From Ancylobacter oerskovii (lineage in GTDB: Bacteria > Pseudomonadota > Alphaproteobacteria > Rhizobiales > Xanthobacteraceae): 64,000 bases of DNA. The notes below the pieces were generated by a model. The model was not told the DNA's origin. It saw nothing but the letters and a program-made list of their open reading frames with translations, and ran no database searches. The position numbers were made by a program, and so were the translations under genes. Shown piece after piece: positions 13,625 to 28,985 of this stretch (position 1 is its first letter; every line of letters begins with the position of its first letter). The DNA lies in the NCBI RefSeq assembly GCF_018390555.1, contig NZ_JAHBGB010000002.1, positions 62,001-126,000 on the forward strand, given 5' to 3'.

Positions 13625-14979
13625 GTTGCCGCTGGACCGCGATCTCTGAAGCGCTAATCTTTTGACCAGTCTGGCCAGAGCCACGCTGCAGTTGCCGCTG
13701 GACCGCGATCTCTGAAGCGCTAATCTCCGCCATGATGAGGCCATGTGGTGGGAGCCGTTGCCGCTGGACCGCGATCTCTGAAGCGCTAATCTCTTGGCGA
13801 CCTGCCACCTACGCCGCGCGCTGTTGCCGCTGGACCGCGATCTCTGAAGCGCTAATCTGCGTCGCGTGCAGGTGAAGTCGCTCTTCCAGTTGCCGCTGGA
13901 CCGCGATCTCTGAAGCGCTAATCTTCTCGGCAGACGGTCGAGAACTATGAGCGCGTTGCCGCTGGACCGCGATCTCTGAAGCGCTAATCTCTTGAGGGAG
14001 GCGGCGTAGTTGTCGATGAAGTTGCCGCTGGACCGCGATCTCTGAAGCGCTAATCTGCGGGTGGACAGGTCGAGAAGAACATCGTAGTTGCCGCTGGACC
14101 GCGATCTCTGAAGCGCTAATCTGCGCCCATTTCTGGTGCAGCAGCCGATGCGGTTGCCGCTGGACCGCGATCTCTGAAGCGCTAATCTGACGAGGGAGAT
14201 CGTTACTTCCCCGATAAGGTTGCCGCTGGACCGCGATCTCTGAAGCGCTAATCTTTGCCGAAGGTGTTTGCCGTCGCCACCATGGTTGCCGCTGGACCGC
14301 GATCTCTGAAGCGCTAATCTGGAGCCACTCAGCAATGTTTTGCTTGATGTGTTGCCGCTGGACCGCGATCTCTGAAGCGCTAATCTGATGCGCGGCGGCG
14401 AGGCTTTCCGTTCGGAGTTGCCGCTGGACCGCGATCTCTGAAGCGCTAATCTCCTATCCCACCATCCCAGTTATCCCAGTTGTTGCCGCTGGACCGCGAT
14501 CTCTGAAGCGCTAATCTAAGCTCGCCGGCCATGAAGTGGGCCTGATGGTTGCCGCTGGACCGCGATCTCTGAAGCGCTAATCTCCATGAAGGCCGGCGTC
14601 AGTGGCGTCTACAGTTGCCGCTGGACCGCGATCTCTGAAGCGCTAATCTGTCGACCAAAACGGCCAGTGCGCTGGCTCCGTTGCCGCTGGACCGCGATCT
14701 CTGAAGCGCTAATCTTTGGGCGCGGGGGTGGCGCTGGCGGCGAGCGTTGCCGCTGGACCGCGATCTCTGAAGCGCTAATCTAATACGTCGTCCAGGGCGC
14801 CGATCAGCAGCGTTGCCGCTGGACCGCGATCTCTGAAGCGCTAATCTAATACGTCGTCCAGGGCGCCGATCAGCAGCGTTGCCGCTGGACCGCGATCTCT
14901 GAAGCGCTAATCTATATCCAGCATAGCATCCGGCGCCCCCGTCGTTGCCGCTGGACCGCGATCTCTGAAGCGCTAATCT
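13625..14979 (+). CRISPR. Type II-C CRISPR array, 21 repeats and 20 spacers
   Basis: The 36-bp repeat begins GTTGCCGCTGGACCGCG and ends GAAGCGCTAATCT. All 21 copies appear identical. Units are 66 bp (30-bp spacers), except spacer 13 (14453-14481), which is 29 bp. Spacers 18 and 19 (14782-14811 and 14848-14877) are identical. Orientation is inferred as rightward: the anti-repeat in the tracrRNA is complementary to this strand, and the 3' part TCTCT-GA-GCTA-TCT resembles other alphaproteobacterial II-C repeats. That makes crRNA transcription opposite to the cas genes, as in Neisseria. Neither flank is a conventional AT-rich leader: the left end abuts the recombinase remnant and the right end a strong hairpin. 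Confidence 0.98.
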
Positions 14980-15051: not shown

Positions 15052-15390
15052 TCAGAACAAGGCGAGCTGATCTGGATTTTTCCGCTGTCGTCTGCGCCTC
15101 TGGCCGGAGAATCGCACGATGTTCTCATATTGCCGATCCGTGAACGTCAGGATATGGACGTCGCCGCGTTCGGGCAAATTGGCCTCGATCCGGCGCATAT
15201 AGGCCTCGAACTGCTCCTTGCCATTGCAGAAGCGAGCATAGACCGAAAACTGGCTCTTCTCGAAACCTTCGTCGAGCAGGTACTGCCGAAACTTCGTCGC
15301 CGCGCGGTTCTCCTTTTTGCTGGTCACCGGCAGATCGAACATCACGAATATCCACATGAGTCTGTAGCCGCTGAGCTGGGTGATCGTCAT
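15052..15390 (-). CDS. cas2: CRISPR-associated endonuclease Cas2
   Basis: 112 residues, ferredoxin-like fold. The first beta strand MWIFVMFDLPV carries the conserved aspartate, followed by FRQYLLDEGFEKSQFSVYAR and the nucleotide-fold strand GDVHILTFTDRQY. Cas2 dimers bridge two Cas1 dimers in the spacer-integration complex. The start overlaps the cas1 stop by four bases (ATGA), so it is translationally coupled. Normal length and no defects seen. Confidence 0.97.
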   Translation of the reverse strand: MTITQLSGYRLMWIFVMFDLPVTSKKENRAATKFRQYLLDEGFEKSQFSVYARFCNGKEQFEAYMRRIEANLPERGDVHILTFTDRQYENIVRFSGQRRRRQRKNPDQLALF

Positions 15391-16358
15391 GCCAAGGGAT
15401 CGACCGCGGCAAGCGTCTCTTCTGTCTCGGCCGATCCGGAAACCAGCTGGTCAAGCCCCGCGATCTCTATCGGCGTCGGCGGCAGGGGAAGCTGGAGGGC
15501 GGCGGCATCGCCCGTTTCGAAAGCGCGAGCGAGCGACTGCGCCAGCCGCTGCGCCGCGACCGTCACGGTTGTGACGCCGTCACCTCCCGGGAGATCGATC
15601 GCAATCAGCCCGGCGAAAGCTCGCTTGGTCGTCGGCTCCACCTTATCGAACCCCTTCGCCGCGAGACGGACCGCCAGAGCGTCGACCAGCGGTCGAAACG
15701 GCTCGACGAGATCATCGGCCAGAGCGAAAGCATTGCCGCGATTAGCATGGTGAATGCCGATCGAAGGATGCAAACCGGCGGCAACCACGGAACGCGCTAC
15801 CAGCGAACGCAGGATGGTGTAGCCATAGTTCATCGGGCCGTTGATGTCGGCGGCATCGCGATCCCGCCGGAAATCCGGCCCCATTAACAACGGCCAGTAG
15901 CGCCGCGCCGCCTGGGACTCGATATTATCGGGATCACCGGAACGAACCTTGCGGATCAGCATGTCGAGCGCGGCGCGTTCCTTACCGTGGGCTTGCAGCA
16001 CCGCGGACTGCCAACGCAGCTTGGCGATCACCACTCGGCTCCAGAGCTGTTTGGTCAGCGGGCGTCCCGCGTCCCATTGCGCCCGCATCCGGGCATTCTG
16101 ACCGTGATGACCATCGAGCGGCAGGAAGACGCCGACCGGCGCATGGTTCGGGCCGCACAGAACCAGCGGCGCTGCGCGCTCGGCCAGGGCCACCGCAAGA
16201 TTTGTGCTCCAGGTCACGCCATGAGCGTGGACGATCACCGCGGCGACGTCGTCCAGCGGGACGCGCCCGACCTCCCGCCTCTCCTCGCTGACGACCAGGA
16301 AGCCGCGATGGGCGGAAAGGTGCCGGCCGTCGCTGGCGATATCGACGACCCGCTCCAT
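15387..16358 (-). CDS. cas1: CRISPR-associated integrase Cas1 (type II)
   Basis: 323 residues. Metal-binding residues expected for Cas1 are present: Glu147 in DNIESQAARRYWPLL, a histidine in GIHHANRGNAFALADD (203 or 204) and acidic residues at about 216-219 (DLVEPFRP). The N-terminal beta-sandwich dimer domain precedes them. With Cas2 it integrates new spacers. The start lies 3 bp after the cas9 stop, so cas9-cas1-cas2 form one operon, the minimal II-C gene set without csn2 or cas4. Confidence 0.97.
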   Translation of the reverse strand: MERVVDIASDGRHLSAHRGFLVVSEERREVGRVPLDDVAAVIVHAHGVTWSTNLAVALAERAAPLVLCGPNHAPVGVFLPLDGHHGQNARMRAQWDAGRPLTKQLWSRVVIAKLRWQSAVLQAHGKERAALDMLIRKVRSGDPDNIESQAARRYWPLLMGPDFRRDRDAADINGPMNYGYTILRSLVARSVVAAGLHPSIGIHHANRGNAFALADDLVEPFRPLVDALAVRLAAKGFDKVEPTTKRAFAGLIAIDLPGGDGVTTVTVAAQRLAQSLARAFETGDAAALQLPLPPTPIEIAGLDQLVSGSAETEETLAAVDPLA

Positions 16359-16361
16359 GAC

Positions 16362-19300
16362 CTAGACTTTCGTGCGCGGCTTGCGGGCCGGGAAGCCGGG
16401 GTCGAGCACGCGGCCGAGTTCGTCGATGCGCACTTGCCGGGCCTTCCAGCGCTGCAGCGAGCTGGGCGAACCATAGACGTAGCGGAACGGATCTTCCTTG
16501 TCGGCGTCCCGCGCTTTGAGGCTGCCGGCCTCCTGCGGCGGAGCCAGCACCAGCGTACCCGATGAGAATTTGACGACACGCATCAGTTCGCGCTCGCCTT
16601 CGCGCTCCACGGCGACGACATCGTTCTGCTGAAGCGAGAGCACCTTGCGCGCCGTCGGATTGGCGATGCGGACCGGCGAGGTCCAGCCCGGCTGATGGGC
16701 CTCGAACATCGAGACAACCTCATCCTTCCACTTGCCGGTCTTCAGTTCCCAGACGTCGAAACGGTGATTTGAATCGCCCTTATAGGCCTTGTAGGCGCGT
16801 CCGTTCTGGTCTCGGATCGGGATCACCGAGAGCGGTTCGACCACGCGGATGCGGCGGAGACCGGGATAGAAGCGGGGGCCGCGCTCGGGGTGGCCGAAGC
16901 TTCGCATCGCCTGAACGAAGGCGGCACCCTCCTTGCCGGCGGTCCAGTCCTTCAGCTTCTGCTTCAGTTCCTCGTCGCGGATTTCCTCCAGCTTCGCCGG
17001 CTTGTCGAAATAGCCGAGCGGCTTGCGGGTGACGACGATGTCGAGACCGCGTGGGTCCTTCTGGCCGGTGAGGCCGTAAGCGGTCTCGTTGTGCAACTGT
17101 GCGGCGGTGACGTCCCTGGTCTTCGAGCGGCCGGTCTTGGCGGCGCTGCCATGATCGGGGCGATGGCTGACAGTGATGTTGCGCACTACGCGGCCGATCT
17201 CCTCGGAAAAGCCATCCCATGGATCGGGAATCACCGACGTCACGCGGTCGGCGGCGACGAGACCCTCGCGACCGGCCTCGCGGGCGATGCGGTTCAGCAG
17301 GCCGCGATCGGTGACGGCGATGACGATCGCATCTATGGCATGGTGGCGGTGGTCGCGCCGGTTCTTCGGCTGGTTGGCGCCGCCCGAGAGATTGTGGTCG
17401 GGCAGATGGTGGTTGAGACCCCAGCTCCGCCGCAGCATCTCGGTCAGCCGGCCGGGCGAAACCCAGACATGGCTGGAGCCTTCGCCTTTCTCCGGGTAGA
17501 GCGCGGAGAGATATTCCCGCGCGAGGCGCGACAGATGCTGTGTGTCGGTAAGCTGGCGGGCGAGAAAGCCCCCCTGTGCGTCGAAGCGATGCATCGCATC
17601 CGGCTCGAAACGCCAGCGTTTTTCGCGCGGCAGGCGCGCGGCGCGGGCGGCGATGGCGTCCCAGTCGGCATCGGGGCCGAAATGGGCGCGCAGGTCGTCC
17701 TTTGCCTCATAGGGCGAGCGTTGGCGCTTGATGCGGTTCACCTCGCGCAGGCAGAGGATGCGGTTGCCGTTGGAATCGTCCACCGTCTGGCTGAACGGCA
17801 GGATGTGGTCGACCTCGACCGCGCCGGAGAACAGCATGGAAGGCGAAATCTGCCTGCCGCTGTAGACGCAGCGGCGATCCAGCACGTTCTCGTAATTCAG
17901 CTCTTCCCAGAGCTTCAGGACGGCGCGATTGCCGCCCTTGTCGGCCTGATTGAGGTCTTCACGAAGGGTCTTCGAGCGCCGTTCCGCCGCCGCGCGGTTT
18001 TCGCGGTTCTTCTGGTTGACCTCGCGTTTCCGCTCTTCGTCGAGCTTCAGCTCGCGGGCGAGTTCAAGCGCGATCTCCGTCGGTGGGCCGTAGCGGCGGA
18101 TCAGGGTATTCAGCACCCGGCGGAGCTGGTTAAGGCCGATGTGCACGGTCGGATTGGTCAGACGGCCGATGCGCAGCGCGCAGTCTTTCTCTTCCGGATC
18201 GGCGGTACCGGGCAGAATGTGACGTTCAAGGATTTCACCGTAGTACGGCAGGGCGACGTTGCCATTCTCGTCCTGCCAGACCTGCCCGTCCCGGAAATCG
18301 GAGTGATGGCCGAGGCCGGCACGCGCCACCGCCTCGCTATAGACGACGACATCCTTTTCCAGCTCCGCGATCAGCAGGCGCGTGGCGGTCTCGCCGAAGC
18401 GGCCATAGCCCTCGGGCAGACGCGCTCCGGTGACGGCACGCGCGGCTTCCGGCGACAGCTCGAAGCGTTCGCACAGCCACGCCTCGAATGCGGCGACCTC
18501 CTCCTCGCTCTCCAGCTTTTCGAGGCGAGCGATCACTTCCCACTGCACATCCGGCGCCATGCCGAGCCACACTTTGCCGAAACGGGTTTTGTGGGAGAGT
18601 TCGGCGGCGACCTCGTCGCCCTTCATGTCACGGCGGTTTTCAGTCTCCTTGTTGAAGCGCACATCAAGATCGAGCTTCAGCCCTTTGCGCAGGCTTTCGT
18701 AGGAGACGGTCTTCTTCGGACCGAGTTTGGAGAGCAGCGCGTCGCGTTCGGCCTTTTCCAGAAATCGGGCCTCCGCGCCGGGCTCCACAATTTTTAGCGT
18801 GTTGACCTCTTCCAGAAGGCGCCGGCGCTGGAACAGCGGATGAGATTTGGGCAGGCGCGGCTCGGGCGGCAGCAAGGTGCAGAAGCCGATCTTCGGCTCC
18901 TTCAGTGGGCGCTGGTGGAAGATGATCTCGTAGAACTGCGCCTGCCGCTCCAGCGTCAGCACGTCGGGATGGTGGATCGCCTGCGCCTCCCAGATCGCCT
19001 GGAACTCTTCTTCCAGCGTCTGGCGATCAGGGTAGAAATCATAGACCTCGCTCGCTTTTTCTTCCTCCACGTCCGGTGCGACGATGCGGGTGCGGACATG
19101 CGGGATCGTATTCAGATTTGTAGCGCCAGCCCGACGCTTGTGCAGGAACTCACCCAGTGTCCTCGCATCGACTTTCGCCATCTGCTCGTGCAGCCGGGCG
19201 ACACCGATCCGGACCATGCCGGCATCATCGTTCTTGCTGCGGTCGGTCTTGCGATTCGATTTGAAGCCGCGGCGCTGATTCAGATGGAACAGCGCGCGGC

Positions 19301-19661
19301 CGAGATGGGTGAGTGGCAGTTGCTCATCGAGCGCGCGGGCTCGCAGTTCATATGGATCAAGCGCAGCGAGGGCGGCACGCTCCGTCTCGTCGGCAGGGAA
19401 AAGGCCCGCGAGCGTGAGGTATTTGATCAGCGCTGCCTGACGCTGCTTGAAGCGGTCGCGCCGGCGGCGCATGGCGCGCGCATCGCGACGCTGGACGGCA
19501 AGAGAGGCGCCAGATTTCGGCTCGCGCCCGTCGGAGAAGATACGTGAGCCGGCGGCGATGATGCGGATGGGCTTCCAGCCATTATCAGTGCTGGCGAGCT
19601 CGATAGCTGCCCACCCGAGCGAAGAGGTGCCCAAGTCCGCCCCAAAACGCCAACGCATCAT
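16362..19661 (-). CDS. cas9: Type II-C Cas9 RNA-guided endonuclease
   Basis: 1099 residues from the ATG at 19661 (tandem ATG at 19658), preceded by AGGGCGAGC. All nuclease motifs are intact: RuvC-I FGADLGTSSLGWA with Asp9; arginine-rich bridge helix about residues 58-80; RuvC-II EIALELAREL with Glu533; HNH VDHILPFSQTVDDSNGN with His619 and Asn633; RuvC-III DHRHHAIDAIV with His773/774 and Asp777. The size is typical of compact II-C enzymes. The C-terminal PAM-interacting region (about 830-1099) cannot be converted to a PAM by eye. Cas9 cuts DNA matched by crRNA:tracrRNA. Its 5' flank contains a dyad, a promoter candidate and an 11-nt match to the guide part of the long tracrRNA. Confidence 0.98.
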   Translation of the reverse strand: MMRWRFGADLGTSSLGWAAIELASTDNGWKPIRIIAAGSRIFSDGREPKSGASLAVQRRDARAMRRRRDRFKQRQAALIKYLTLAGLFPADETERAALAALDPYELRARALDEQLPLTHLGRALFHLNQRRGFKSNRKTDRSKNDDAGMVRIGVARLHEQMAKVDARTLGEFLHKRRAGATNLNTIPHVRTRIVAPDVEEEKASEVYDFYPDRQTLEEEFQAIWEAQAIHHPDVLTLERQAQFYEIIFHQRPLKEPKIGFCTLLPPEPRLPKSHPLFQRRRLLEEVNTLKIVEPGAEARFLEKAERDALLSKLGPKKTVSYESLRKGLKLDLDVRFNKETENRRDMKGDEVAAELSHKTRFGKVWLGMAPDVQWEVIARLEKLESEEEVAAFEAWLCERFELSPEAARAVTGARLPEGYGRFGETATRLLIAELEKDVVVYSEAVARAGLGHHSDFRDGQVWQDENGNVALPYYGEILERHILPGTADPEEKDCALRIGRLTNPTVHIGLNQLRRVLNTLIRRYGPPTEIALELARELKLDEERKREVNQKNRENRAAAERRSKTLREDLNQADKGGNRAVLKLWEELNYENVLDRRCVYSGRQISPSMLFSGAVEVDHILPFSQTVDDSNGNRILCLREVNRIKRQRSPYEAKDDLRAHFGPDADWDAIAARAARLPREKRWRFEPDAMHRFDAQGGFLARQLTDTQHLSRLAREYLSALYPEKGEGSSHVWVSPGRLTEMLRRSWGLNHHLPDHNLSGGANQPKNRRDHRHHAIDAIVIAVTDRGLLNRIAREAGREGLVAADRVTSVIPDPWDGFSEEIGRVVRNITVSHRPDHGSAAKTGRSKTRDVTAAQLHNETAYGLTGQKDPRGLDIVVTRKPLGYFDKPAKLEEIRDEELKQKLKDWTAGKEGAAFVQAMRSFGHPERGPRFYPGLRRIRVVEPLSVIPIRDQNGRAYKAYKGDSNHRFDVWELKTGKWKDEVVSMFEAHQPGWTSPVRIANPTARKVLSLQQNDVVAVEREGERELMRVVKFSSGTLVLAPPQEAGSLKARDADKEDPFRYVYGSPSSLQRWKARQVRIDELGRVLDPGFPARKPRTKV

Positions 19662-19797
19662 GCTCGCCCTAGATGCCGCCGACCACAATACTATCTGTGC
19701 TTGCTCCCGAGTCCATACGGCCGGCCCTCGCAAAGCGGCCTGCTATCCAACGCTTCACGAACGGACGATCAGCCAGTACAAAGTATCACCCAAATTT

Positions 19798-19808
19798 AAG
19801 ATTGCCTA
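19798..19808 (+). other. Putative Cas9 self-regulatory target in the cas9 promoter
   Basis: AAGATTGCCTA here is identical to the 11 bases immediately 5' of the repeat-like sequence in the tracrRNA locus (19973-19983). It is followed on the same strand by AGGCAATT, which would occupy the PAM position. In the tracrRNA locus the same 11-mer is followed by GTTGCCGC instead, so the locus itself would not be a target. Confidence 0.6.
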
Positions 19809-19815
19809 AGGCAAT
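19801..19815. promoter_or_regulatory. Perfect dyad in the cas9 promoter region
   Basis: ATTGCCTAAGGCAAT is a perfect inverted repeat of two 7-bp arms around one A. It covers seven of the eleven bases of the inferred Cas9 target and could instead, or also, be a repressor operator. Confidence 0.5.
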
Positions 19816-20049
19816 TGACAGACCCTGGTTGCTAGGCCACCATTAAGGTGCTTGAGAGCGCGAGTTGGGTCTCCACAGCCCAAGCACGTGGCGGATTCAA
19901 GCCCGCCCTAGTCCGAGCGCTCGGATGCACTCTTAGGTCTTTCTGGGGGAAGAGCGATCTTCAACCACCCCCAAGATTGCCTAGTTGCCGCTGGCCTGCG
20001 GTCTCTGAAACGGTGCTTGACCAGCGCTTCGGGGGTGTTACTTTGACAC

Positions 20050-20129
20050 CTTCAGAGATCGTGGTCTGGCTGTTAACAAGCAGTCATGTCTGCACCAGAT
20101 AAGGGCGACGCTCCGGCGTCGCCTTTTTT
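20050..20129 (+). ncRNA. tracrRNA (short form)
   Basis: The anti-repeat (about 20050-20077) shares CTTCAGAGATCG and GGTC with the reverse complement of the CRISPR repeat, with wobble changes elsewhere. It is followed by a short nexus-like hairpin GCAG-TCATGT-CTGC (20080-20093) and a terminator hairpin with six T. This is the usual order for a compact type II-C tracrRNA of about 80 nt. A possible promoter is TTGACC (20017-20022) with TACTTT (20039-20044) 16 bp on. The RNA pairs with pre-crRNA for RNase III processing and anchors it in Cas9. It is divergent from cas9. The 5' end is estimated. Confidence 0.85.
20104..20129 (+). terminator. tracrRNA terminator
   Basis: GGCGACGC and GCGTCGCC form a perfect 8-bp stem with loop TCCG, directly followed by TTTTTT (20124-20129). 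Confidence 0.93.
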
Positions 20130-20130
20130 G

Positions 20131-20968
20131 CATCAATCGATCTGACTACTCTGCGAGAATACCGAAAGCGGATGTACCGAGGTTGGCCATTGGGTCAACA
20201 CACGTCATAGGGCTATAGCGAACACATAGTTCTTTTTTTGGTCGCTCGCGGCCCGCCATTCGGAAGAAGAGGCGGGGGCATACGCCGAAGAAGAGCGCTT
20301 GATCGAGAGCTCCTTGCGGCAGACACCACATCTCTGCGCGGCCTCTCCGTAAAGCTCGACGTGCTGATCGTCGTCGGCGCCGATGGCGCCGAGGGGCGGT
20401 ATTTTCCGTGGCCAGAGTTGCGGCGCATCCGCAGGGATGTTGCGCGCTTGATCCAGTTGCAGCGTCACGATGCAGTCGGCTTTTCCGCCACCTTCCGCGG
20501 CTTGTAATAGACAATCCAGTCGTCGACGCAGGCCTGGACGCGGCGGAGATACCGCCGAGGGAACTGGTACCGCGTACGCCGAAGCCAGAGGCCACGCCAC
20601 GCTGCTAATGCTGCGCCGGTATCATGACCATCATCGAGACCTTCGCCCGAGGCTCGGCGCCGAAGACCTGGCCCGCCACCTCCACCATCAGGATCGATAC
20701 TCATGAGAACCGGCTCCGTCCCCCCGTACCTGGATATTGTCAACGCCGTCTCCGGCATCGGCGCTGCATGCGCCCTGCCGTTGGCGGAGCCGCGTCCATC
20801 ACCATCGTGGCTGCCAGACAAGGTCGTTCGTGCGCCGGCCTGCCCCCGACCGTGTACGCCGATCCAGTCTGTCAAACGGCACGCAATGTTGCCCCCGATT
20901 GGAGTGGGCTCCTCGAGGCGGACAGGGAGTTAAGCTTGGGTCGGCCTGCCGTGAGGACGAAGCTGAGG
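20131..20968. other. Gene-free decayed region with possible transposase debris
   Basis: No frame here has a recognisable intact protein or ribosome-binding site. On the minus strand near 20480-20590 a short stretch (VQACVDDWIVYYKPR) is reminiscent of the C-terminal end of IS3-type OrfB transposases, but without the expected RPHxxL block, so this is a weak guess. The rightmost part (about 20880-20968) is the upstream flank of the IS3 OrfA fragment. The region separates the CRISPR locus from the secretion operon. Confidence 0.4.
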
Positions 20969-21010
20969 ATGGGGAAGAGGAAACGGTATTCTGCGGAGTT
21001 CAAGTTGCGG
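20969..21010 (+). pseudogene. IS3-family transposase OrfA, first 14 codons only
   Basis: ATG at 20969 begins MGKRKRYSAEFKLR, the classic N-terminus of an IS3-family OrfA. Homology stops there, where the sequence becomes the 3' end of the convergent ABC transporter gene (stop at 21000-21002). The insertion element has been deleted except for this end. Confidence 0.65.
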
Positions 21011-23870
21011 ACAGGCTGGCGAGCTGCCAGAGGCGCCCCTTTCGCTCCATCAGTTCGGCAAAGCTGCCGTTTTCGACGATGCGCCCATGCTCCAGCACCA
21101 GGATCCGATTGGCACGGCGGATCGTGCTGATCCGATGCGCGATCAGGATCCGAGTAGAAGGCATCGCCTGCACCGATGCCATGACCTGCGCCTGGGTGGC
21201 GTTGTCGAGGGCGCTGGTCGCCTCGTCGAGGACCAGGATGGGTGGTTTGGCGAGCAGAGCGCCAGCCAGCGCCAACCGCTGAATCTGACCGCCCGACAGC
21301 GTGCGGGAGGCGTCCAGCAGCAAGGTGTGCAGGCCGAGCGGCATCGCCGAGACGTCCGCCGCCATGGCGGCAGCGGCCAGCGCCTGCCAGATCTCTTCTA
21401 CGGTGGCATTAGTCTCGCCACGGACAATTTCGAAGATGGTCCCGGGCGGCAGCTGGCCGTCTTGCAGCACCACGCCGATCTGCCGGCGATACGCCTCCGG
21501 ATGCAGTGCGCGCACGTCGTGACCATCGACATACACCGCCCCGTGAGACGGGGTCTCAAGCCCGAGCAGCAACCGCACCAGCGTTGACTTGCCGCTGCCG
21601 GACGGGCCGACGATGGCGACCATCTCGCCCGGAGCCGCGCGGAACGACACGTCGGCGAGGACGGCCGGCCCGCCGCCATAGGCAAAGCCGATGGATGAAA
21701 ACTCGATCTCGCCTTCGAGCCGCCCCGGGTCGGACAGTCCGGCCGTCGGCTCGGGAGCCATCTCCACCAGCGGCCGGGCATAAGCCCAGCTGGAGCGCAG
21801 CAGCCAGACGGCGAGACCACCCCGTAGAAGCTGGGACAGCGCCAAGAGCATCAGCGAGAAGGACGCGAGGATGGCCGCGACCGACGCGACGGGAATGCCG
21901 GGCGTGCCATCCGCTCCCCTGCTGACGGTGTGAATGATGGCGAGCAGGGCGGCGCCGGCAATGCCGGGCCATGCGGCCAGCCAACCTTCATAGATGTTCA
22001 TGATCCGGCGGGCCGCCACCTGTCGGGCGCGAAGCGCAACGAAGCGGTCCACCCAGCGCCGGGTGGCGCGCGTCTCCGCGCCGGCACTGCGCACGGCGGC
22101 GATGCCGTTGACGAACTCAGCCATCTGGCTGTCGGCGGTTCCCTGGAGTTGCTCGCCATCACGGATGGCCCGCGCCTGCAACCAGCCGGCCAGGATGCCG
22201 GCGGCGACCAGGAACGCCACCAGCGCCAAAGCGAAGGCGGCAAGCCGGGGATCGTGCCAGAACAGGAAAGCCATGCTGGAGAGCATGGTGGCGCCGGTCC
22301 CGACGCCCTGGAAAATGAACTGCCGCGCGCCGGAGACTGTCGCCTGGGCCGCCGAAACTCTCGCGCCGAGATCTGCACTGGCATGGCCGCGCAGGGCGGC
22401 GAGCGGCAGGCCGACGATCCTGTCCCACAGGGCTTCGTGGAGCCGGCCATCGCCGCGGGCGGCGATACGCTGGCGCGCGGCTTCGCCTATGAGCTGAACC
22501 AGGAAGCCGGCGAGGCCGACGCCGAGGATCACGAGGCCGACCTGCAGCACGGCGTTCTGCAGCGCCGCAGGCACCAGCACGCCGTAAATGAAGCCGGTCG
22601 CAAGCGGCAAAATCTGGCCGATGGCGCTCCCCGCCACCAGGGCGGCGAGAAAAGGCGCGATATCCCAGAGGCCGGCGGCGACGCCGACACCGAACAGGGT
22701 GGCGAAGCCAGACCGGGCCGGCAGGGGACGGAACACCGCATGAGCGGCGGCGGCGATACCGGCGGCCTCGGCCGCCGCCACCGGCCGCCCGGCGCCGCTG
22801 GGGTCGTATTCCTGCCAGCGGTGGCCGCGCCAGATAAGCGCAATCGGGGTGTCGTCTGTCCGCCTCGCGAGCATGGGAGCCGCTTCGGCCGTCCACCAGC
22901 CCTCCGCAAGCTGCACCGGCTGAAGCCGGATGTCGGACGCGCGCGCAATATCCTCCAGCGTCGGCGCCAGGTCCATCTGGGCGCGGCGGGCCTTGACCGG
23001 ACGACGGACCGACGCCCCGATTTCCCGCCCGATGATCCGCATCACGTCCATCAGGCCGTCGCCGCCGTCCGCCTCGGAGCGCGGCGGCAGCGGGTTCGCC
23101 AGGATGTCGGCTATCCTCAGCGCCCCCTGGAACGCGTCATGTTCCTCTTCCGCCTGCCGGGTGCGGAGGCGGTTCGCCTCGTCGGTCTCGGCGAAGCCCC
23201 GCGCCAGCGGCAGCAGCTCCGCGACGGCGATGTGGAAGGCGTCGAGGGCGGCGGGCCAGTCGTCGCGCGCAAATCCGGCGTCCCACCCGAGAACCCGGAT
23301 TTCGACCGGCTTGGCGAGTGTCAGCCATAGGCCGACGGGCAACGGCAGCAGGCCCTGCACGGGCTCTATCCCGCACAGCCGCGCGCCATCGGCGGGCAGC
23401 TCGACCCAGACGATCTCGCCGCCGCCTCCGATGACGGCGCCGGCGGCGAACGCTACCGGCCCCGCCGTCGCCGGGCGGACGACCAGAGGCCGGATGTCGG
23501 TCTCGACAACGTCCGTCAGTCCGTCGGCCAGGTTCCGAAGCCAGACGGCGACACCTGCGACGAATGCGGCGGTGGGCCCCCGTGTTCGCCAGCCCGCCGG
23601 CGGCAGCTGGTAGAACCGGGCGCCCGGACCGGGCACGGCAATGATCTTCTCGTCACCGAACTGGCCGGCCGGCATGCCGAAGAGCAAGCCGCGGTCGGGG
23701 ATGCGCGCGACCGGATGGCGGGCGGAGCGGCTGGCGTCCCGCACCGCGAACAGCATGGCCTCGCCGCCCAGGACGAAATGGCAGCTGCCCGGTTCGTCGA
23801 GCACGAGCCACGGCCCTTCAACCCTGATCGGCGTTGCGCTTGCAGAGGGAGCTTCTTCGCGCACGGTCAC
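21000..23870 (-). CDS. NHLP-type bacteriocin export ABC transporter, permease/ATPase subunit
   Basis: 956 residues. A non-enzymatic N-terminal part of about 390 residues (cyclic-nucleotide-binding-like at the start, QFGDEKIIAVPGPGARFYQLP) precedes a six-helix membrane domain (about 400-680) and a full nucleotide-binding domain: Walker A VGPSGSGKST, signature LSGGQIQRLALA, Walker B PILVLDEATSALD, H-loop IAHRISTI. This fits the TIGR03797 family, the second ABC subunit of NHLM/NHLP secretion systems, which partners the peptidase-containing subunit in the inner membrane. It follows that gene with 3 bp spacing. The last codons (LASLSAT) are formed at the junction with the IS3 scar, so the natural C-terminus may have been replaced by a few residues. 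Confidence 0.88.
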   Translation of the reverse strand: MTVREEAPSASATPIRVEGPWLVLDEPGSCHFVLGGEAMLFAVRDASRSARHPVARIPDRGLLFGMPAGQFGDEKIIAVPGPGARFYQLPPAGWRTRGPTAAFVAGVAVWLRNLADGLTDVVETDIRPLVVRPATAGPVAFAAGAVIGGGGEIVWVELPADGARLCGIEPVQGLLPLPVGLWLTLAKPVEIRVLGWDAGFARDDWPAALDAFHIAVAELLPLARGFAETDEANRLRTRQAEEEHDAFQGALRIADILANPLPPRSEADGGDGLMDVMRIIGREIGASVRRPVKARRAQMDLAPTLEDIARASDIRLQPVQLAEGWWTAEAAPMLARRTDDTPIALIWRGHRWQEYDPSGAGRPVAAAEAAGIAAAAHAVFRPLPARSGFATLFGVGVAAGLWDIAPFLAALVAGSAIGQILPLATGFIYGVLVPAALQNAVLQVGLVILGVGLAGFLVQLIGEAARQRIAARGDGRLHEALWDRIVGLPLAALRGHASADLGARVSAAQATVSGARQFIFQGVGTGATMLSSMAFLFWHDPRLAAFALALVAFLVAAGILAGWLQARAIRDGEQLQGTADSQMAEFVNGIAAVRSAGAETRATRRWVDRFVALRARQVAARRIMNIYEGWLAAWPGIAGAALLAIIHTVSRGADGTPGIPVASVAAILASFSLMLLALSQLLRGGLAVWLLRSSWAYARPLVEMAPEPTAGLSDPGRLEGEIEFSSIGFAYGGGPAVLADVSFRAAPGEMVAIVGPSGSGKSTLVRLLLGLETPSHGAVYVDGHDVRALHPEAYRRQIGVVLQDGQLPPGTIFEIVRGETNATVEEIWQALAAAAMAADVSAMPLGLHTLLLDASRTLSGGQIQRLALAGALLAKPPILVLDEATSALDNATQAQVMASVQAMPSTRILIAHRISTIRRANRILVLEHGRIVENGSFAELMERKGRLWQLASLSAT

Positions 23871-23873
23871 CGG

Positions 23874-26018
23874 TCAGCCCGCACGCATCAGGTCGTGGAA
23901 ATGGCCGGGCTCGGCCAGCAACTGGCCGGGCGGCCCGTGCTGGATGATCCGGCCTGCGTCGAGCACGAGGATGCGCTCGCACTCGCGCAAGGCGGTGTAG
24001 CGATGGGCGATGACGATCATGGTCGCCCCATTGCGGCGCAGGTTGGCGAAGAGTTGCCGTTCCGTCTCGCTGTCCAGCGCGGCCGTGGCCTCGTCGAGGA
24101 TCAGGACGCGCGGATCCCGTACCAGGGCGCGGGCGATCTCCAGCCGGGCGCGCTGGCCCCCGGACAGGTCGGTGCCGCCTTCCCGCAGGCGCGAGCCGTA
24201 GCCGCCCCGGCGCATCACCGTCTCGTGCAGCAGCGCCAGCCGAGCGGCGGCGACGATCCGCTCGTCCGGCAGGCTGTGGTCCCACAGGCCGATATTGTCA
24301 CGCACCGTGCCCTCGAATATGGCGGCGCGCTGGTCCACATAAGCGAGGGATTGGCGCAGGCGCGACCGCGGAACATCGGGCAGCGGCACGCCGTCGAGGA
24401 GAATTGTGCCGGCGCTGGTCTGGTGAAGGCCGGCGATGAGGGAGGCCAGCGTCGACTTCCCCGATCCCGAAGCCCCGGTGATGCCGAGCCGTTCTCCCGG
24501 CTCCAGGGCGAAGGAGACGCCATCGAGGATCAGGGGGCTGCCAGCCCCATGCCGGAAGCCGACCTCTTTCGCCGCGACGGCACCGAGCAGCCGGCCGCCA
24601 TGCCCACCGGCTGCAGCGTCATCGCCGATGAACTCCGGCGCGACCGGATGGTCGAGCGTATCGTCCAGCAGCCGGAGATTGGCGTGCCCATCCTGGATGC
24701 GGGCGCCGAGCTGGACCAATGTCGCGACGGGTCCGAGGAAACCCATCATCAGCGCCTGGAAGGCGACGAGCATGCCCAGCGACATCTCCCCGGCGATCAC
24801 CTTGATGCCACCGAGCATCAGCACCAGGGCCCCGGCGATCGCCGCGGTGAGGCCGGGCAGCGCGCCGAGGCGCATCTGGGCGACGCCGATGGATTGGCGC
24901 AGGTTGAGCGCACGGGCATTCATCGCCGTCAGGCGCTCCCGCAGGCGGTGTTCGGTGCCGCTCGCCTTGTAGGTGTCGATCATGCGCAGGCCTTGCCGGA
25001 CGAAGCCGGCATGGCCGGTGGTGGCCGCGAGCAGGCGGCGGTTGTCGTCATCCAGCGCGCGCGACGACCAGGCCAGCAGGCCGAGATTGCCGAGGCCGAG
25101 CAGAAGTACGATGAGGCCGAGATCCGGCGCGTAGAACAGCATGGCGGCGAGATAGGCCAGGGCGGTCAGCAGGCTGGAGAGGGCGGCCCCCACCTCGACG
25201 GCCAGCAATTGTGCCAGCCGGTTGTTCAACGCGGTGCGCCCGGCGACCTGCGCGGGCTGGCGCTGGGCGAAATAGCTGATCGGCAGGCGCAGGATGTGGG
25301 TGGCGAAGTCCAGCCCGCCAGCGATCGCCAACCGTGTCTCCAGCCGCAGCAGGACCTCGCGCTGAAGCCAGGTCAGCAGCCCCATCGCCGCCGCGCACCC
25401 CACCATGCCCAGAAGCAGATAGCCCAGCCAGTCGTCGAAACTGTTGATCAGGATCTGATCGATGAAGAACTGCGCAAAAGCGGGCACCAGCAGTCCCGGC
25501 ACCACCATCGCCAGCGAGATCATGACGACGAAGGCGAGGGCGCTTCGGCTGCCCTCCAGTCGCCTCGCGAGGCTCCGCGCCAGCGATGGCGGTCGTTCCG
25601 TGCGCTGAAACCCGGGACCGGGCCGCAGGGAGAGCACGATGCCGGTAAAGCCACGGTCGAATTCTTCGTCGGAGACGCGCCGGGGACCCTGGGCCGGGTC
25701 GTTCAGATAGACGGTGCCGCGACCGAACCCCTCCACCACCAGAAAATGATCCATGCCCCAGTGGATGATCACCGGCATGGCCATGTTGCGCAGGTCCGCG
25801 GGCTCCATGCGGGCGGCGTCGACCTCCAGGCCCTCGCCGCGGGCGGCCCGCACGATGGAGCGGGCGGAGCTGCCGTCCCGCGTCACGTTGCAGGCGACCC
25901 GCAGTTCCTCGAGCGTCACCCAGCGGCCGTAATACGCCAGCACGATGCCGAGCGCCGCCGCCCCGCACTCCGTCGCCTCCATCTGCAGCAGGGTAGGGGT
26001 GCGGCGGCGTGCCGGCAT
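23874..26018 (-). CDS. NHLP-type ABC transporter with C39 leader peptidase
   Basis: 714 residues in three parts. Residues 1-135 are a C39 cysteine protease with oxyanion Gln12, Cys18 (QMEATECGAAALG), His91 (MDHFLVVEG) and Asp107 (NDPAQGP). A six-helix exporter domain follows (about 150-450), then an ATPase domain with GASGSGKST, DLSGGQRARLEIA and RVLILDEATAALD. This is the TIGR03796 pattern: cleave a double-glycine leader and export the rest. All catalytic residues are present, so it should be active. Spacing of 3 bp on both sides shows a tight operon with the membrane-fusion protein and the second ABC subunit; the cognate double-glycine substrate is encoded at the operon head. Confidence 0.93.
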   Translation of the reverse strand: MPARRRTPTLLQMEATECGAAALGIVLAYYGRWVTLEELRVACNVTRDGSSARSIVRAARGEGLEVDAARMEPADLRNMAMPVIIHWGMDHFLVVEGFGRGTVYLNDPAQGPRRVSDEEFDRGFTGIVLSLRPGPGFQRTERPPSLARSLARRLEGSRSALAFVVMISLAMVVPGLLVPAFAQFFIDQILINSFDDWLGYLLLGMVGCAAAMGLLTWLQREVLLRLETRLAIAGGLDFATHILRLPISYFAQRQPAQVAGRTALNNRLAQLLAVEVGAALSSLLTALAYLAAMLFYAPDLGLIVLLLGLGNLGLLAWSSRALDDDNRRLLAATTGHAGFVRQGLRMIDTYKASGTEHRLRERLTAMNARALNLRQSIGVAQMRLGALPGLTAAIAGALVLMLGGIKVIAGEMSLGMLVAFQALMMGFLGPVATLVQLGARIQDGHANLRLLDDTLDHPVAPEFIGDDAAAGGHGGRLLGAVAAKEVGFRHGAGSPLILDGVSFALEPGERLGITGASGSGKSTLASLIAGLHQTSAGTILLDGVPLPDVPRSRLRQSLAYVDQRAAIFEGTVRDNIGLWDHSLPDERIVAAARLALLHETVMRRGGYGSRLREGGTDLSGGQRARLEIARALVRDPRVLILDEATAALDSETERQLFANLRRNGATMIVIAHRYTALRECERILVLDAGRIIQHGPPGQLLAEPGHFHDLMRAG

Positions 26019-26021
26019 GGC

Positions 26022-27329
26022 TTACGAGCCCCAGTCGCGCAGGCGGTTGAGGATCGGGAAGACGAGGGTCAGCAGCGGAGCGGAGCGCACGGTGACGCGA
26101 ACCTCGGCGAGCGTGCCGCTGGCGACCGGAGGCGCGGCCGCGCCACGGCTCGACGACCAGAGATATTGCTGGGGATCCTCAGGGTCCATCTCAGGCTCGA
26201 TCGTGATTTCCAGCGGCACGCCGAGTCTGGCGACGAAGGACTGGACGAGCCGGTCGTTCTGAAGGGTCCGGGTCATGCCGGCGGTGCTTGCCGGGGCTTC
26301 GGCCACATGGGTCACGCGTCCCCGGATGAAACCATATTCCTCCTGCGGAGCCGTCAGCGGCGAGATCTCCGCAACCATGCCTTCCGCGATCTTCTTGCCG
26401 TCGGCCGCCTTCACATAGGCAACCACCAGCGGCACTGGAATGATATGACTCTGGCCCTTGCCGTTCGGAGACAGCCGCGGCACGCGCTCCACGGCAAGGA
26501 TCGCCGTTCCCGGCTGGACCATCTGGCCGACATTCGCCTTCGCCTCCACCACGTGGCCGCCGAACGGAGACCGGATGGCGCCCTGGCGCTCCAGCTGGTC
26601 CTCCAGCGTCGTCACCGCGCGCCTGGCCTCGGTCACCTGGCGCTCTGCCTCCAGGCGGGCGCGCTCGTTGTCGGCGGCCTTGATGACCGCGGCCGCCTCC
26701 ATCTTGGCGATTTCGTCCTTGGCGTCGGCGATCTGGCTGTTGACCTGCAAAACCGCCGCGCTCACCTCGATCAGCCGCTCGCGGGTGACGATCTGGCGTT
26801 CCGCCAGCCGTTCGACGCCCGCCTGCTGTTCGAGCAGCGTCACGTTCTGATCCTGCAAGGCGGCCAGCCGGTCCTTCAGCGAAGCGAGGCGCGCGGCGCG
26901 CATGGCCGCCTGCTCTGCGGCCTCCCGCTCCTGAAAGCGGATCAATGCGTTGCGAAAGTCGACGGCGTCATCCATCTCGCCGCGCGCCACCACCAACCTG
27001 AGCAGCAGCTCGGGCTGCTCCACGCGCGCAACCACCATGCCGGGACCGACAACGTCTCCCGGAGCAACGGTCAATTCGCGGATCTGCCCGGTGGCGTCGG
27101 ACACCACGTCGATGATCCGGCCGGACGACAGGAAGATGCCGTCGCCGTCCACCGAGATGGGAATGGTGAAGACGGCGCTCCACGCCACGGCACCCGCGAC
27201 CAGCGCGACAAGGGCGAAGCCGGCGCCCCACAGGCGGGGACGCATCACCCGCAAGGCATCCCGATAGTCGTTCCCCGTGGCGAGGGACGCCGCGGCCTCT
27301 GGCCGGAAGATCGGATCGGGACCGGACAT
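26022..27329 (-). CDS. HlyD-like membrane-fusion protein of the NHLM secretion system
   Basis: 435 residues: a cytoplasmic N-terminus, one transmembrane helix (LWGAGFALVALVAGAVAW, about residues 33-50), a beta-barrel/lipoyl block (GRIIDVVSDATGQIRELTVAPGDVV), a long coiled coil (about 110-240, rich in Ala, Glu and Gln), the second lipoyl half (GAIRSPFGGHVVEAKANVGQ) and a membrane-proximal domain. It matches the TIGR03794 NHLM secretion protein type. It would link the inner-membrane ABC pair to the outer envelope; no TolC gene is nearby, so a chromosomal TolC would be used. The gene starts 29 bp after the stop of the precursor gene. Confidence 0.9.
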   Translation of the reverse strand: MSGPDPIFRPEAAASLATGNDYRDALRVMRPRLWGAGFALVALVAGAVAWSAVFTIPISVDGDGIFLSSGRIIDVVSDATGQIRELTVAPGDVVGPGMVVARVEQPELLLRLVVARGEMDDAVDFRNALIRFQEREAAEQAAMRAARLASLKDRLAALQDQNVTLLEQQAGVERLAERQIVTRERLIEVSAAVLQVNSQIADAKDEIAKMEAAAVIKAADNERARLEAERQVTEARRAVTTLEDQLERQGAIRSPFGGHVVEAKANVGQMVQPGTAILAVERVPRLSPNGKGQSHIIPVPLVVAYVKAADGKKIAEGMVAEISPLTAPQEEYGFIRGRVTHVAEAPASTAGMTRTLQNDRLVQSFVARLGVPLEITIEPEMDPEDPQQYLWSSSRGAAAPPVASGTLAEVRVTVRSAPLLTLVFPILNRLRDWGS

Positions 27330-27358
27330 CGGTGCTGGAGCGGACTAAGGCGTGTCGG

Positions 27359-27925
27359 TCAGCGGCTCCGATCCGGCCCCTCAACGCGGTTCTTGTCAAC
27401 TGCGCTCTGGGCGGCGGCTTGGTGGGATTGGCTCTCGATCGGCTGCATTTGCTTGTTTATAAAATCCTGGAGCGTCGAAAGCTCCATCGCAGACAAGTCA
27501 CTGATATTGTTTCGCGTTTCTTCCGCTTGCTCAAGCCCGGCCTGCATCTCCGCCGCGTTCAATTGGCCGTCCTGCAAAGCATCGGTGGCGAATCCGAGTT
27601 CTTTTGCCACCTCGCCGAGGGTGGTTTCCTCGTCGTTGAACGTGACCTTCGTATCGAGTGAAACGTCGGCGCCTTGGCTGTCCGCCTCCGCCTTGTTCAG
27701 CAGGTTGATCCCCTCGCTGTAGCTGAGCCCGAGATCGTTGAGCTGCGACGCGCGCGTGTATTCGGCGTCGACCATGTCGTTCAGTGCGGCGTACCGATCC
27801 GCCATCACACCGGCCACCACCTCCGATATGCTCATATCCTGTACGCTCATATCCCGGCCGGTCCCGCCGTGAATATTGGCAAGATCGTCGTCGCTCAACG
27901 ACTTCGGCGTCTCGTTTCCAGCCAT
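27359..27925 (-). CDS. Double-glycine leader precursor, Cys-free 167-residue cargo of the NHLP exporter
   Basis: 188 residues from ATG 27925, with AAGGCGGG in front. The first 21 residues are a textbook C39 leader: LSDDDLANIHGG preceded by a short polar stretch, with predicted cleavage after Gly21. The mature part is acidic, rich in Ala, Glu, Asp and Gln, probably mostly helical, and contains no cysteine. It cannot form lanthionine, sactionine or disulphide crosslinks. No modification enzyme and no immunity gene is adjacent. It is the first gene of the four-gene export operon. I do not recognise the mature domain; it could be a large unmodified bacteriocin, a secreted effector or a surface protein. 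Confidence 0.85.
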   Translation of the reverse strand: MAGNETPKSLSDDDLANIHGGTGRDMSVQDMSISEVVAGVMADRYAALNDMVDAEYTRASQLNDLGLSYSEGINLLNKAEADSQGADVSLDTKVTFNDEETTLGEVAKELGFATDALQDGQLNAAEMQAGLEQAEETRNNISDLSAMELSTLQDFINKQMQPIESQSHQAAAQSAVDKNRVEGPDRSR

Positions 27926-28061
27926 GATCGACCCGCCTTGAGTAGGAACGGAACCTTCTTTCAACTTACGCGACCAACGCAACGCGGTAAAGGACCATGG
28001 TACCGGCCACCTCGCTCGCGGAGCCCCGGGCGACACGGTGGCGATGAACGGCGAGGAAGGG

Positions 28062-28985
28062 TCAGGGCCGCCGGGCCGGAGGGCGGATCGCGCCCCGGGT
28101 GTTGACGTAGATGGCGTAGAGCGACGTGTGCGCGGTGATGAACAGCCGGTTCCGCTTGCGGCCGCCGAAGCACAGATTGGAGACCCGCTCGGGCATGGGC
28201 AGCGTGCCGAGATGCGTGCCGTCGGGCGCGTAGCAACGGGCTGAGCGGAAGGCCGAGGTCCACACATTGCCGAAGACGTCGCAGCGGAGGCCGTCGAAGA
28301 AGCCCTCCTCAAGGACGGCGAAGGTGCGGGGATTGGCGAGGCTGTCATCCGGCAGGACGTCATAGGCGGTGAGCGAGCGGGGGTGATCCGCCACATGGCT
28401 TGCGCCGGTATCGCTCACATAAAGCGTCGTCTCGTCCGGCGAGAAGGCGAGCCCATTGGGCTGAACGCGGTCGGTCGCCACGGCGGCGAGGGCACCTGTC
28501 CGCGGATCGAGGCGGTAGACGCATTGCCGACCCAGTTCGGACGGCGCGGCGTCTCCCTCATAATCGGTGTCGATGCCGTAGGTCGGGTCGCTGAACCACA
28601 GGCTGCCGTCCGACTTCACGACGACGTCGTTGGGCGAGTTCAGTCGCCTGCCCTCATAATGGCTGGCGAGGGAGACGACGGAGCCGTCAGGCTCGGTGCG
28701 GGTGACGCGCCGCGTGCGATGTTCGCAGGTGACGAGCCGACCTTCCTGATCGACGGTGTTGCCGTTGCTGTTGTCGGACGGCCCGCGAAACACGGAAACC
28801 ATGCCATTGGTTTCGTCGTAACGCATCATCCGGTCGTTGGGGATGTCGGAAAACACGAGATAGCGGCCGGCCGCGAGATAGGCGGGGCCTTCGAGCCAGC
28901 GCCCGCCGGTCCACAGATGGTCGAGCTGGGCATAGGCGAGCACAAGGCCGCCCATGCGCGGATCGCGTATCTCAAATTCGCTCAT
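28062..28985 (-). CDS. SMP-30/gluconolactonase/LRE family protein
   Basis: 307 residues forming a six-bladed propeller. Family blocks: LEGPAYLAAGRYLVFSDIPN with the metal-binding Glu, RLNSPNDVVVKSDGSLWFSDP with the Asn, QPNGLAFSPDETTLYVSDT, and DGLRCDVFGNVWTS with the Asp ligand. These calcium or zinc enzymes hydrolyse sugar lactones such as gluconolactone. No signal peptide. It reads in the same direction as the flavin monooxygenase upstream, from which it is separated by 53 bp, so the two may be co-transcribed. Substrate unknown. Confidence 0.9.
   Translation of the reverse strand: MSEFEIRDPRMGGLVLAYAQLDHLWTGGRWLEGPAYLAAGRYLVFSDIPNDRMMRYDETNGMVSVFRGPSDNSNGNTVDQEGRLVTCEHRTRRVTRTEPDGSVVSLASHYEGRRLNSPNDVVVKSDGSLWFSDPTYGIDTDYEGDAAPSELGRQCVYRLDPRTGALAAVATDRVQPNGLAFSPDETTLYVSDTGASHVADHPRSLTAYDVLPDDSLANPRTFAVLEEGFFDGLRCDVFGNVWTSAFRSARCYAPDGTHLGTLPMPERVSNLCFGGRKRNRLFITAHTSLYAIYVNTRGAIRPPARRP

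Follow-up and report, generated by a model that had tools for sequence, protein, structure and literature searches.

The type II-C CRISPR-Cas locus of Ancylobacter oerskovii appears to encode a natural single-guide RNA, a long form of its tracrRNA that is predicted to keep Cas9 bound at the cas9 promoter with no cleavage, which would make it the II-C counterpart of tracr-L, a natural single guide of the Streptococcus pyogenes type II-A system reportedly presented by Workman and colleagues in Cell in 2021. The probability of this reading is placed at about 0.85, and under it Cas9 is likely used by the cell as a brake on its own production. The locus lies within the 64,000 nucleotides analyzed here (the window). 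The same reading was put forward in a preliminary description of this DNA, and it is supported by the anatomy of the locus, the computed fold of the RNA, the uniqueness of the guide sequence in the assembly, a PAM-like motif beside the target and, above all, the covariation of guide and target among relatives.

Organization of the Locus

The locus is compact. The genes cas2, cas1, and cas9 share the minus strand, the tracrRNA lies divergently on the plus strand, and a CRISPR array completes the set. Its features, with both predicted promoters read by eye, are as follows.

13625–14979, plus strand: CRISPR array of 21 repeats of 36 nt and 20 spacers, one spacer occurring twice
15052–15390, minus strand: cas2 (TIGR01573)
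15387–16358, minus strand: cas1 (TIGR03639, type II Cas1)
16362–19658, minus strand: cas9 of type II-C (TIGR01865), with the ATG at 19656–19658 taken from relatives; the open frame extends to 19733
19794–19821, minus strand: predicted cas9 promoter, CTGTCA (19816–19821) and TTAAAT (19794–19799) separated by 16 nt
19798–19808, plus strand: target of the natural guide, AAGATTGCCTA, an exact copy upstream of cas9
19809–19813, plus strand: PAM-like AGGCA, which fits NGGNR
19973–19983, plus strand: guide of the predicted long-form tracrRNA, AAGATTGCCTA, 11 nt, abutting the repeat-like segment exactly
19984–20012, plus strand: degenerate CRISPR repeat, 25 of 29 positions identical to the array repeat, which pairs with the anti-repeat
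20017–20043, plus strand: predicted promoter of the short tracrRNA, TTGACC and TTACTT
20050–20077, plus strand: tracrRNA anti-repeat with GTTAAC at its end (from fold, duplex, and sequence)
20078–20129, plus strand: tracrRNA 3′ hairpins and terminator (from the fold), T6 at 20124–20129

In the window, cas9 is accompanied by cas1 and cas2 and by neither csn2 nor cas4, the gene content of type II-C; unlike the II-A loci in which tracr-L resides, this locus consists of cas9, cas1, and cas2 only. An ATG stands at the codon equivalent to the assigned cas9 start in five relatives (L031, L032, L005, L067, and L080). The array repeat, GTTGCCGCTGGACCGCGATCTCTGAAGCGCTAATCT, starts with GTTGC, and the two identical spacers are adjacent (14782–14877). 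NCBIfam returned no family for four overlapping frames within 15052–16358, a span filled by cas1 and cas2, or for two frames adjoining the tracrRNA, and Rfam called a tracrRNA neither in the window nor in the loci of five relatives. For cas9, the long form, and the short tracrRNA of the window, a consensus promoter scanner called no promoter. A CTTGAC −35-like box occurs at a place comparable to that of the short-form promoter in L002, L004, L005, L006, and L032, and CTGTCA at a place comparable to that in the cas9 promoter in two of the ten same-strand relatives compared (G534 and G584).

Guide, Target, and Computed Fold

The coordinates of the preliminary description all proved correct, and its central observation was confirmed on re-reading the sequence: the 11-mer shared by the tracrRNA locus and the cas9 upstream region is exact, with both copies in place. 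With the cas9 start assigned from relatives, the target copy is 139 nt upstream of the gene and is followed by AGGCAATT; the tracr-side copy, described earlier as lacking the PAM-side motif, is followed by GTTGCC. A search of both strands of the 5,480,425-base assembly returned these two exact copies of AAGATTGCCTA and no third. The identity of the repeat-like segment to the CRISPR repeat (25/29), the anti-repeat, and the T6 terminator likewise stood.

As in tracr-L, sequence and computed fold place a guide of about 11 nt immediately 5′ of a repeat-like segment and the anti-repeat, all in what is predicted to be a single RNA. Folding, one of the checks proposed earlier, returned −73 kcal/mol for 19974–20128 (z −5.05 relative to shuffles); in this structure the degenerate repeat pairs with the anti-repeat, and the terminator hairpin is formed. 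Six guide bases pair within the tracrRNA in the unconstrained fold, and keeping the guide free costs about 5 kcal/mol. The duplex of repeat-like segment and anti-repeat alone has a computed energy of −29.5 kcal/mol (z −4.5 against shuffles), matched by none of 99 upstream 30-mers. The corresponding duplexes of G573, G376, G584, G635, and G240 are scarcely better than shuffles (z −0.7 to −1.8).

Recurrence of the Pair Among Relatives

Relatives were collected by searching for Cas9 in overlapping samples of the family (296 genomes), the order (397), and the class (385), together with a tracrRNA pattern search of the 397 order genomes, stretches from these genomes, and one collection scan that contributed two loci. 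The resulting set comprises 81 distinct Cas9 loci with readable upstream DNA, the window included. In 69 of them a tracrRNA motif lies no more than 700 nt away; the other 12 were excluded from the counts. Also excluded were Cas9 matches without a locus (six in the order search and six in the class search), three second gene pieces from the family search, the loci L018, L020, L024, and L091, in which the Cas9 match starts past residue 120, L222 from a phylum-wide search, and redundant copies of a single upstream sequence. Matches resembling a tracrRNA in G663 and G187 appeared unrelated on reading and were rejected. A repeat-like segment, defined by at most two mismatches to GTTGCNGYYKGMC at most 220 nt before the tracrRNA, is present in 25 of the 69 loci. 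This pattern was composed after the repeats and some degenerate copies had been viewed; a direct-repeat test that needs no pattern stands beside it.

The pair is conserved in relatives, as would be expected of a guide of the tracr-L kind: the 11-mer before the repeat-like segment is copied between cas9 and the tracrRNA exactly in 10 of the 25 loci and with at most one mismatch in 15. Other offsets in the same loci give 0.85% and 2.4%, respectively, for binomial probabilities of 6e-15 and 2e-18, adjacent offsets not being independent. In the pattern-free test, direct repeats of at least 11 nt, at least 40 nt apart in the interval between cas9 and tracrRNA, were found in 11/69 loci against 0.64 expected per shuffled set, which bears out the earlier estimate that the match exceeds chance, and inverted repeats were found in 3/69 loci against 0.43 expected. 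Nine of the 11 direct and all three inverted repeats are guide/target pairs; those of L096 and L012 are other repeats.

These counts bear on a reading in which a decayed repeat or repeat-derived promoter lies beside the tracrRNA and the 11-mer is a chance match, with no long transcript and no function. The short-form promoter of a Phreatobacter metagenome-assembled genome (MAG) does lie within repeat-like sequence, G515 has an orphan repeat and tracrRNA, and 10 of the 25 repeat-like segments have no matching target within one mismatch. Such decay would not account for exact recurrence in 10/25 loci, for covariation, or for the agreement with NGG presented below, and is given a very slim chance.

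Covariation of Guide and Target

Conservation and covariation in relatives, one of the tests by which the preliminary description proposed that it could fail, came out in favor of the natural single guide, in that guides differ between loci and targets change in step. The same-strand pairs, each with the bases that follow the target, are listed below.

Window, exact: AAGATTGCCTA, then AGGCA
Phreatobacter MAG NZ_JAEULY010000014.1, exact: AAGCTTGCTGA, then AGGCA
G095, exact: AAGAGCGGTTG, then AGGAA
G534, exact: AAGATGGCTTA, then GGGAG
G329, exact: AAGCGAGACTA, then GGGAA
G338, exact: AAATTACTGGTA, then AGGGA
G376, exact: AAATTGTGTTA, then GGAGT
G584, exact: ATGGATATGTT, then GGGGG
G573, one mismatch: ATTGTGAGTT (10 nt), then GGGTG
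G970, one mismatch: then AGTTT
G635, one mismatch: then TGATA

Four further loci, G210 (13 nt), G183 (12 nt), G240 (10 nt), and G1013 (10/11), have opposite-strand pairs and appear to aim at the opposite DNA strand. The Cas9 proteins of G210 and G240 are 94.7% identical, and their guides and targets are unrelated. The match stops at 11 nt in seven of the eight exact same-strand pairs, and in all eight the base just past it is T in the target and not T in the guide, which suggests that the RNA begins there or that longer pairing is avoided. The first three guide bases, AAG, are common to the five closest guides and read CTT in the cas9 sense; their constancy may arise because CTT would overlap the predicted −10 element of cas9. 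The device is recurrent yet patchy among related alphaproteobacterial II-C loci, some lineages apparently target the opposite strand, and pairs turn over between near-identical Cas9 proteins, three points that go beyond the preliminary description.

Rewriting in step with the guide would not be expected of a transcription-factor site, which disfavors the view of the two 11-mers as operators through which an ordinary transcription factor co-regulates the divergent cas9 and tracrRNA promoters. Both copies do lie near predicted promoters, and target and PAM of the window together form a near-perfect palindrome, ATTGCCTTAGGCAAT, as an operator might; the palindrome is, however, absent from the other listed target sites. 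The sequence varies by species while the two copies agree, and this holds even for the sisters with 94.7% identity. One copy stops precisely where the repeat-like segment starts, the other has NGG in 8 of 11 same-strand cases, and the copies lie on opposite strands in four loci. Operators are accordingly regarded as extremely improbable.

PAM-Like Motifs Beside the Targets

Of the 8 exact same-strand targets, 7 are followed by NGG; with up to one mismatch allowed, the count is 8 of 11 (background 5.7%; p about 1e-8 and 2e-8, respectively). The three same-strand targets without it are followed by GGAG in G376 and, in the two one-mismatch pairs, by AGTT (G970) and TGAT (G635). In the window the match is exact and has NGG beside it, in line with the significance given earlier to this motif; the cas9 promoter there is a predicted one, and NGG as a putative PAM derives from the spacers of G370, with a Cas9 that shares about 64% identity with that of the window, and not from the window's own Cas9. 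The G370 locus is without a repeat-like segment. Its PAM set comprises 18 protospacers of 17 spacers with at most three mismatches, 14 in its own genome and four in genus mates. NGG occurs at 12 of the 18 (background 8.8%, p 2.5e-9), with G at position 5 in 12/18 and A in 1/18. These spacers point to NGG independently of the cas9-upstream targets, and AGGCA fits the PAM derived from G370.

A cas9 transcript with its start upstream of the target would be complementary to the same-strand guides, as would be required if the guide were an antisense RNA acting on the cas9 mRNA leader without binding of Cas9 to DNA. Pairing between RNAs needs no NGG, yet NGG stands beside most same-strand targets; in G210, G240, G1013, and G183, moreover, the guide would have mRNA sense, and the match sits right against the repeat, the position of a guide in Cas9 systems. 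Antisense action is for these reasons very improbable, and a Cas9-bound natural single guide is the reading retained. Three of the opposite-strand targets are followed by TAGAACC (G210), AAAAACT (G240), and GGAAACT (G1013), and their common NNRAAC would be another, putative PAM.

Spacers of the window yielded no usable protospacer in the phage collection or in 30 genomes of the genus, and one weak match, with six mismatches, in the loci of relatives. Searched against phages, the G534 array gave two weak matches and the G095 array none; against 69 genomes of its family, the G534 array gave nothing usable. Matches of the G370 array to phages (25 records) were weak and were excluded from the PAM count. 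Many G370 spacers (L104, L172–L185) match the genome that carries them, mostly at 721–777 kb of contig C16, and several of the matches are perfect and have NGG. Adjoining these protospacers are two proteins with matches to phage tail-fibre families, which makes at least some of the self-targeted region prophage. That such self-targets survive points to an anti-CRISPR or to silencing of the system. In L005 the match is of 7 nt only, yet the following bases, AGCCTTGA, are those of its sister L004; three protospacers of the L004/L005 species (GTC, GGC, and GCC) all have C at position 3, a sample too small for a count.

Distribution of the Pair

A quick Cas9 tree with 78 rows shows nine of the same-strand pairs (G573 and the eight exact pairs) scattered among loci without pairs, at least three changes being forced against 5.0 in shuffles; the three may represent one gain and two losses. 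A pair is present in 15 of the 28 loci with at least 200 nt between cas9 and the anti-repeat region and in none of the 41 with less, longer regions also offering more room for chance. The device is missing from the nearest relatives: neither L031 (81% identical) nor L002 (77%, one in-frame stop) carries a repeat-like segment. Nine plasmid loci taken from 45 records (two of 37 Pseudosulfitobacter, two Novosphingobium, and one each of Sphingobium, Azospirillum, Nitrobacter, Bosea, and Limnohabitans, with Marinibacterium left out) showed no exact 10-nt guide/target pair at the repeat-like boundary, the tracrRNA motif being present in seven of the nine. Seven further loci from the phylum-wide search of 378 genomes showed no pair, and two of the seven have the tracrRNA motif.

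In G227, of the same genus, locus L113 carries a broken cas9, 79% identical C-terminally and with an internal stop, and has no tracrRNA motif within 700 nt. G515 is not among the cas9 matches of the order search; at about 4750–4960 of L117 it has a tracrRNA that looks intact and is immediately preceded by a repeat-like segment, which may be a relic or a natural single guide left as an orphan.

Proposed Mechanism and Relation to Known Systems

Under the single-guide reading, the long-form tracrRNA would be transcribed and would load Cas9, and its 11 paired bases, by analogy with S. pyogenes, would permit Cas9 to bind and not to cut. Positioned between the predicted −35 and −10 elements, across the predicted spacer and the −10, Cas9 would block cas9 transcription, and the outcome would be negative feedback on cas9, and on cas1 and cas2 if these are co-transcribed.

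CreR-type RNAs, which belong to other CRISPR types and are not known to have a tracrRNA fusion, are crRNA-like and autorepress other Cas effectors through a short match to a cas promoter. The Francisella novicida system is of subtype II-B. A non-array RNA of F. novicida, scaRNA, guides Cas9 together with tracrRNA and represses chromosomal genes in a PAM-dependent manner (PMC13431127, PMC8730458). There a separate scaRNA acts with tracrRNA on other genes, whereas here guide and tracrRNA form one predicted molecule and the target is cas9.

According to one review, tracr-L occurs in some II-A systems and is not found in other subtypes, and its 11-nt match allows binding while apparently preventing cleavage (PMC8616872); a second source places it across many Streptococcus species (PMC8730458). 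Set beside tracr-L as described in four papers (PMC8616872, PMC8730458, PMC11417352, PMC12216829), the device described here resembles it in its predicted long-form tracrRNA, its 11-nt match in a predicted cas promoter beside a PAM-like motif, the predicted joining of repeat and anti-repeat in one RNA, and short and long forms from two promoters, which are predicted here. It differs in belonging to an alphaproteobacterial II-C system with a different Cas9, repeat, and tracrRNA, in being known from sequence, and in that the guides of some relatives seem directed to the opposite strand, where the PAM-like motifs are different. The term II-C is absent from the main text of PMC11417352 and PMC12216829. 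Within II-C, two papers describe extraneous crRNAs in arrays (PMC12080349) and a different small RNA in Neisseria (PMC13431127). No II-C tracr-L was found by title or abstract start among the papers listed in the literature searched, most subscription papers and all preprints lying outside its scope. Among searchable papers, an autorepressing long-form tracrRNA is described for II-A only.

If the reading is true, type II-C has a built-in feedback loop that can be read from sequence alone, and Cas9 autorepression reaches beyond II-A, which suggests an old origin or repeated invention. Natural single guides would then have lengths apparently tuned to binding and not to cutting, and the PAMs of uncharacterised Cas9 proteins could be guessed from their own promoters. 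A broader proposal, to which somewhat better than even odds are given, is that self-limiting natural single guides are general to Cas9 systems and not a II-A invention, that alphaproteobacterial II-C pairs are repeatedly rewritten, even between 95%-identical sister Cas9 proteins, and may flip strand, and that the PAM tracks the local Cas9, the brake being selected and its letters free.

Additional Observations

L048, L056, and L080 share a box, TTTKCAAGWCA, that immediately precedes the guide and is a candidate site for a promoter or activator of the long form. Between target and guide of the same loci (L056, L048, and L080, of G338, G573, and G584), a hairpin is followed on the tracrRNA strand by GCGGGAGGTGG..CATGAGA, which reads as a strong ribosome site and a frame of four to six codons (MRRL or MRLYAV). 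Rfam gave no match at this hairpin and short frame, which together are perhaps a leader-peptide switch for the long form.

Near the CRISPR locus of the window, six more frames (20465–28396) match ABC transporter, peptidase C39, or HlyD families, or no Pfam family. At 21000–27329 lie the genes of an HlyD protein and of two ABC transporter proteins, one of which has a peptidase C39 domain, and these genes probably form a peptide export cluster.
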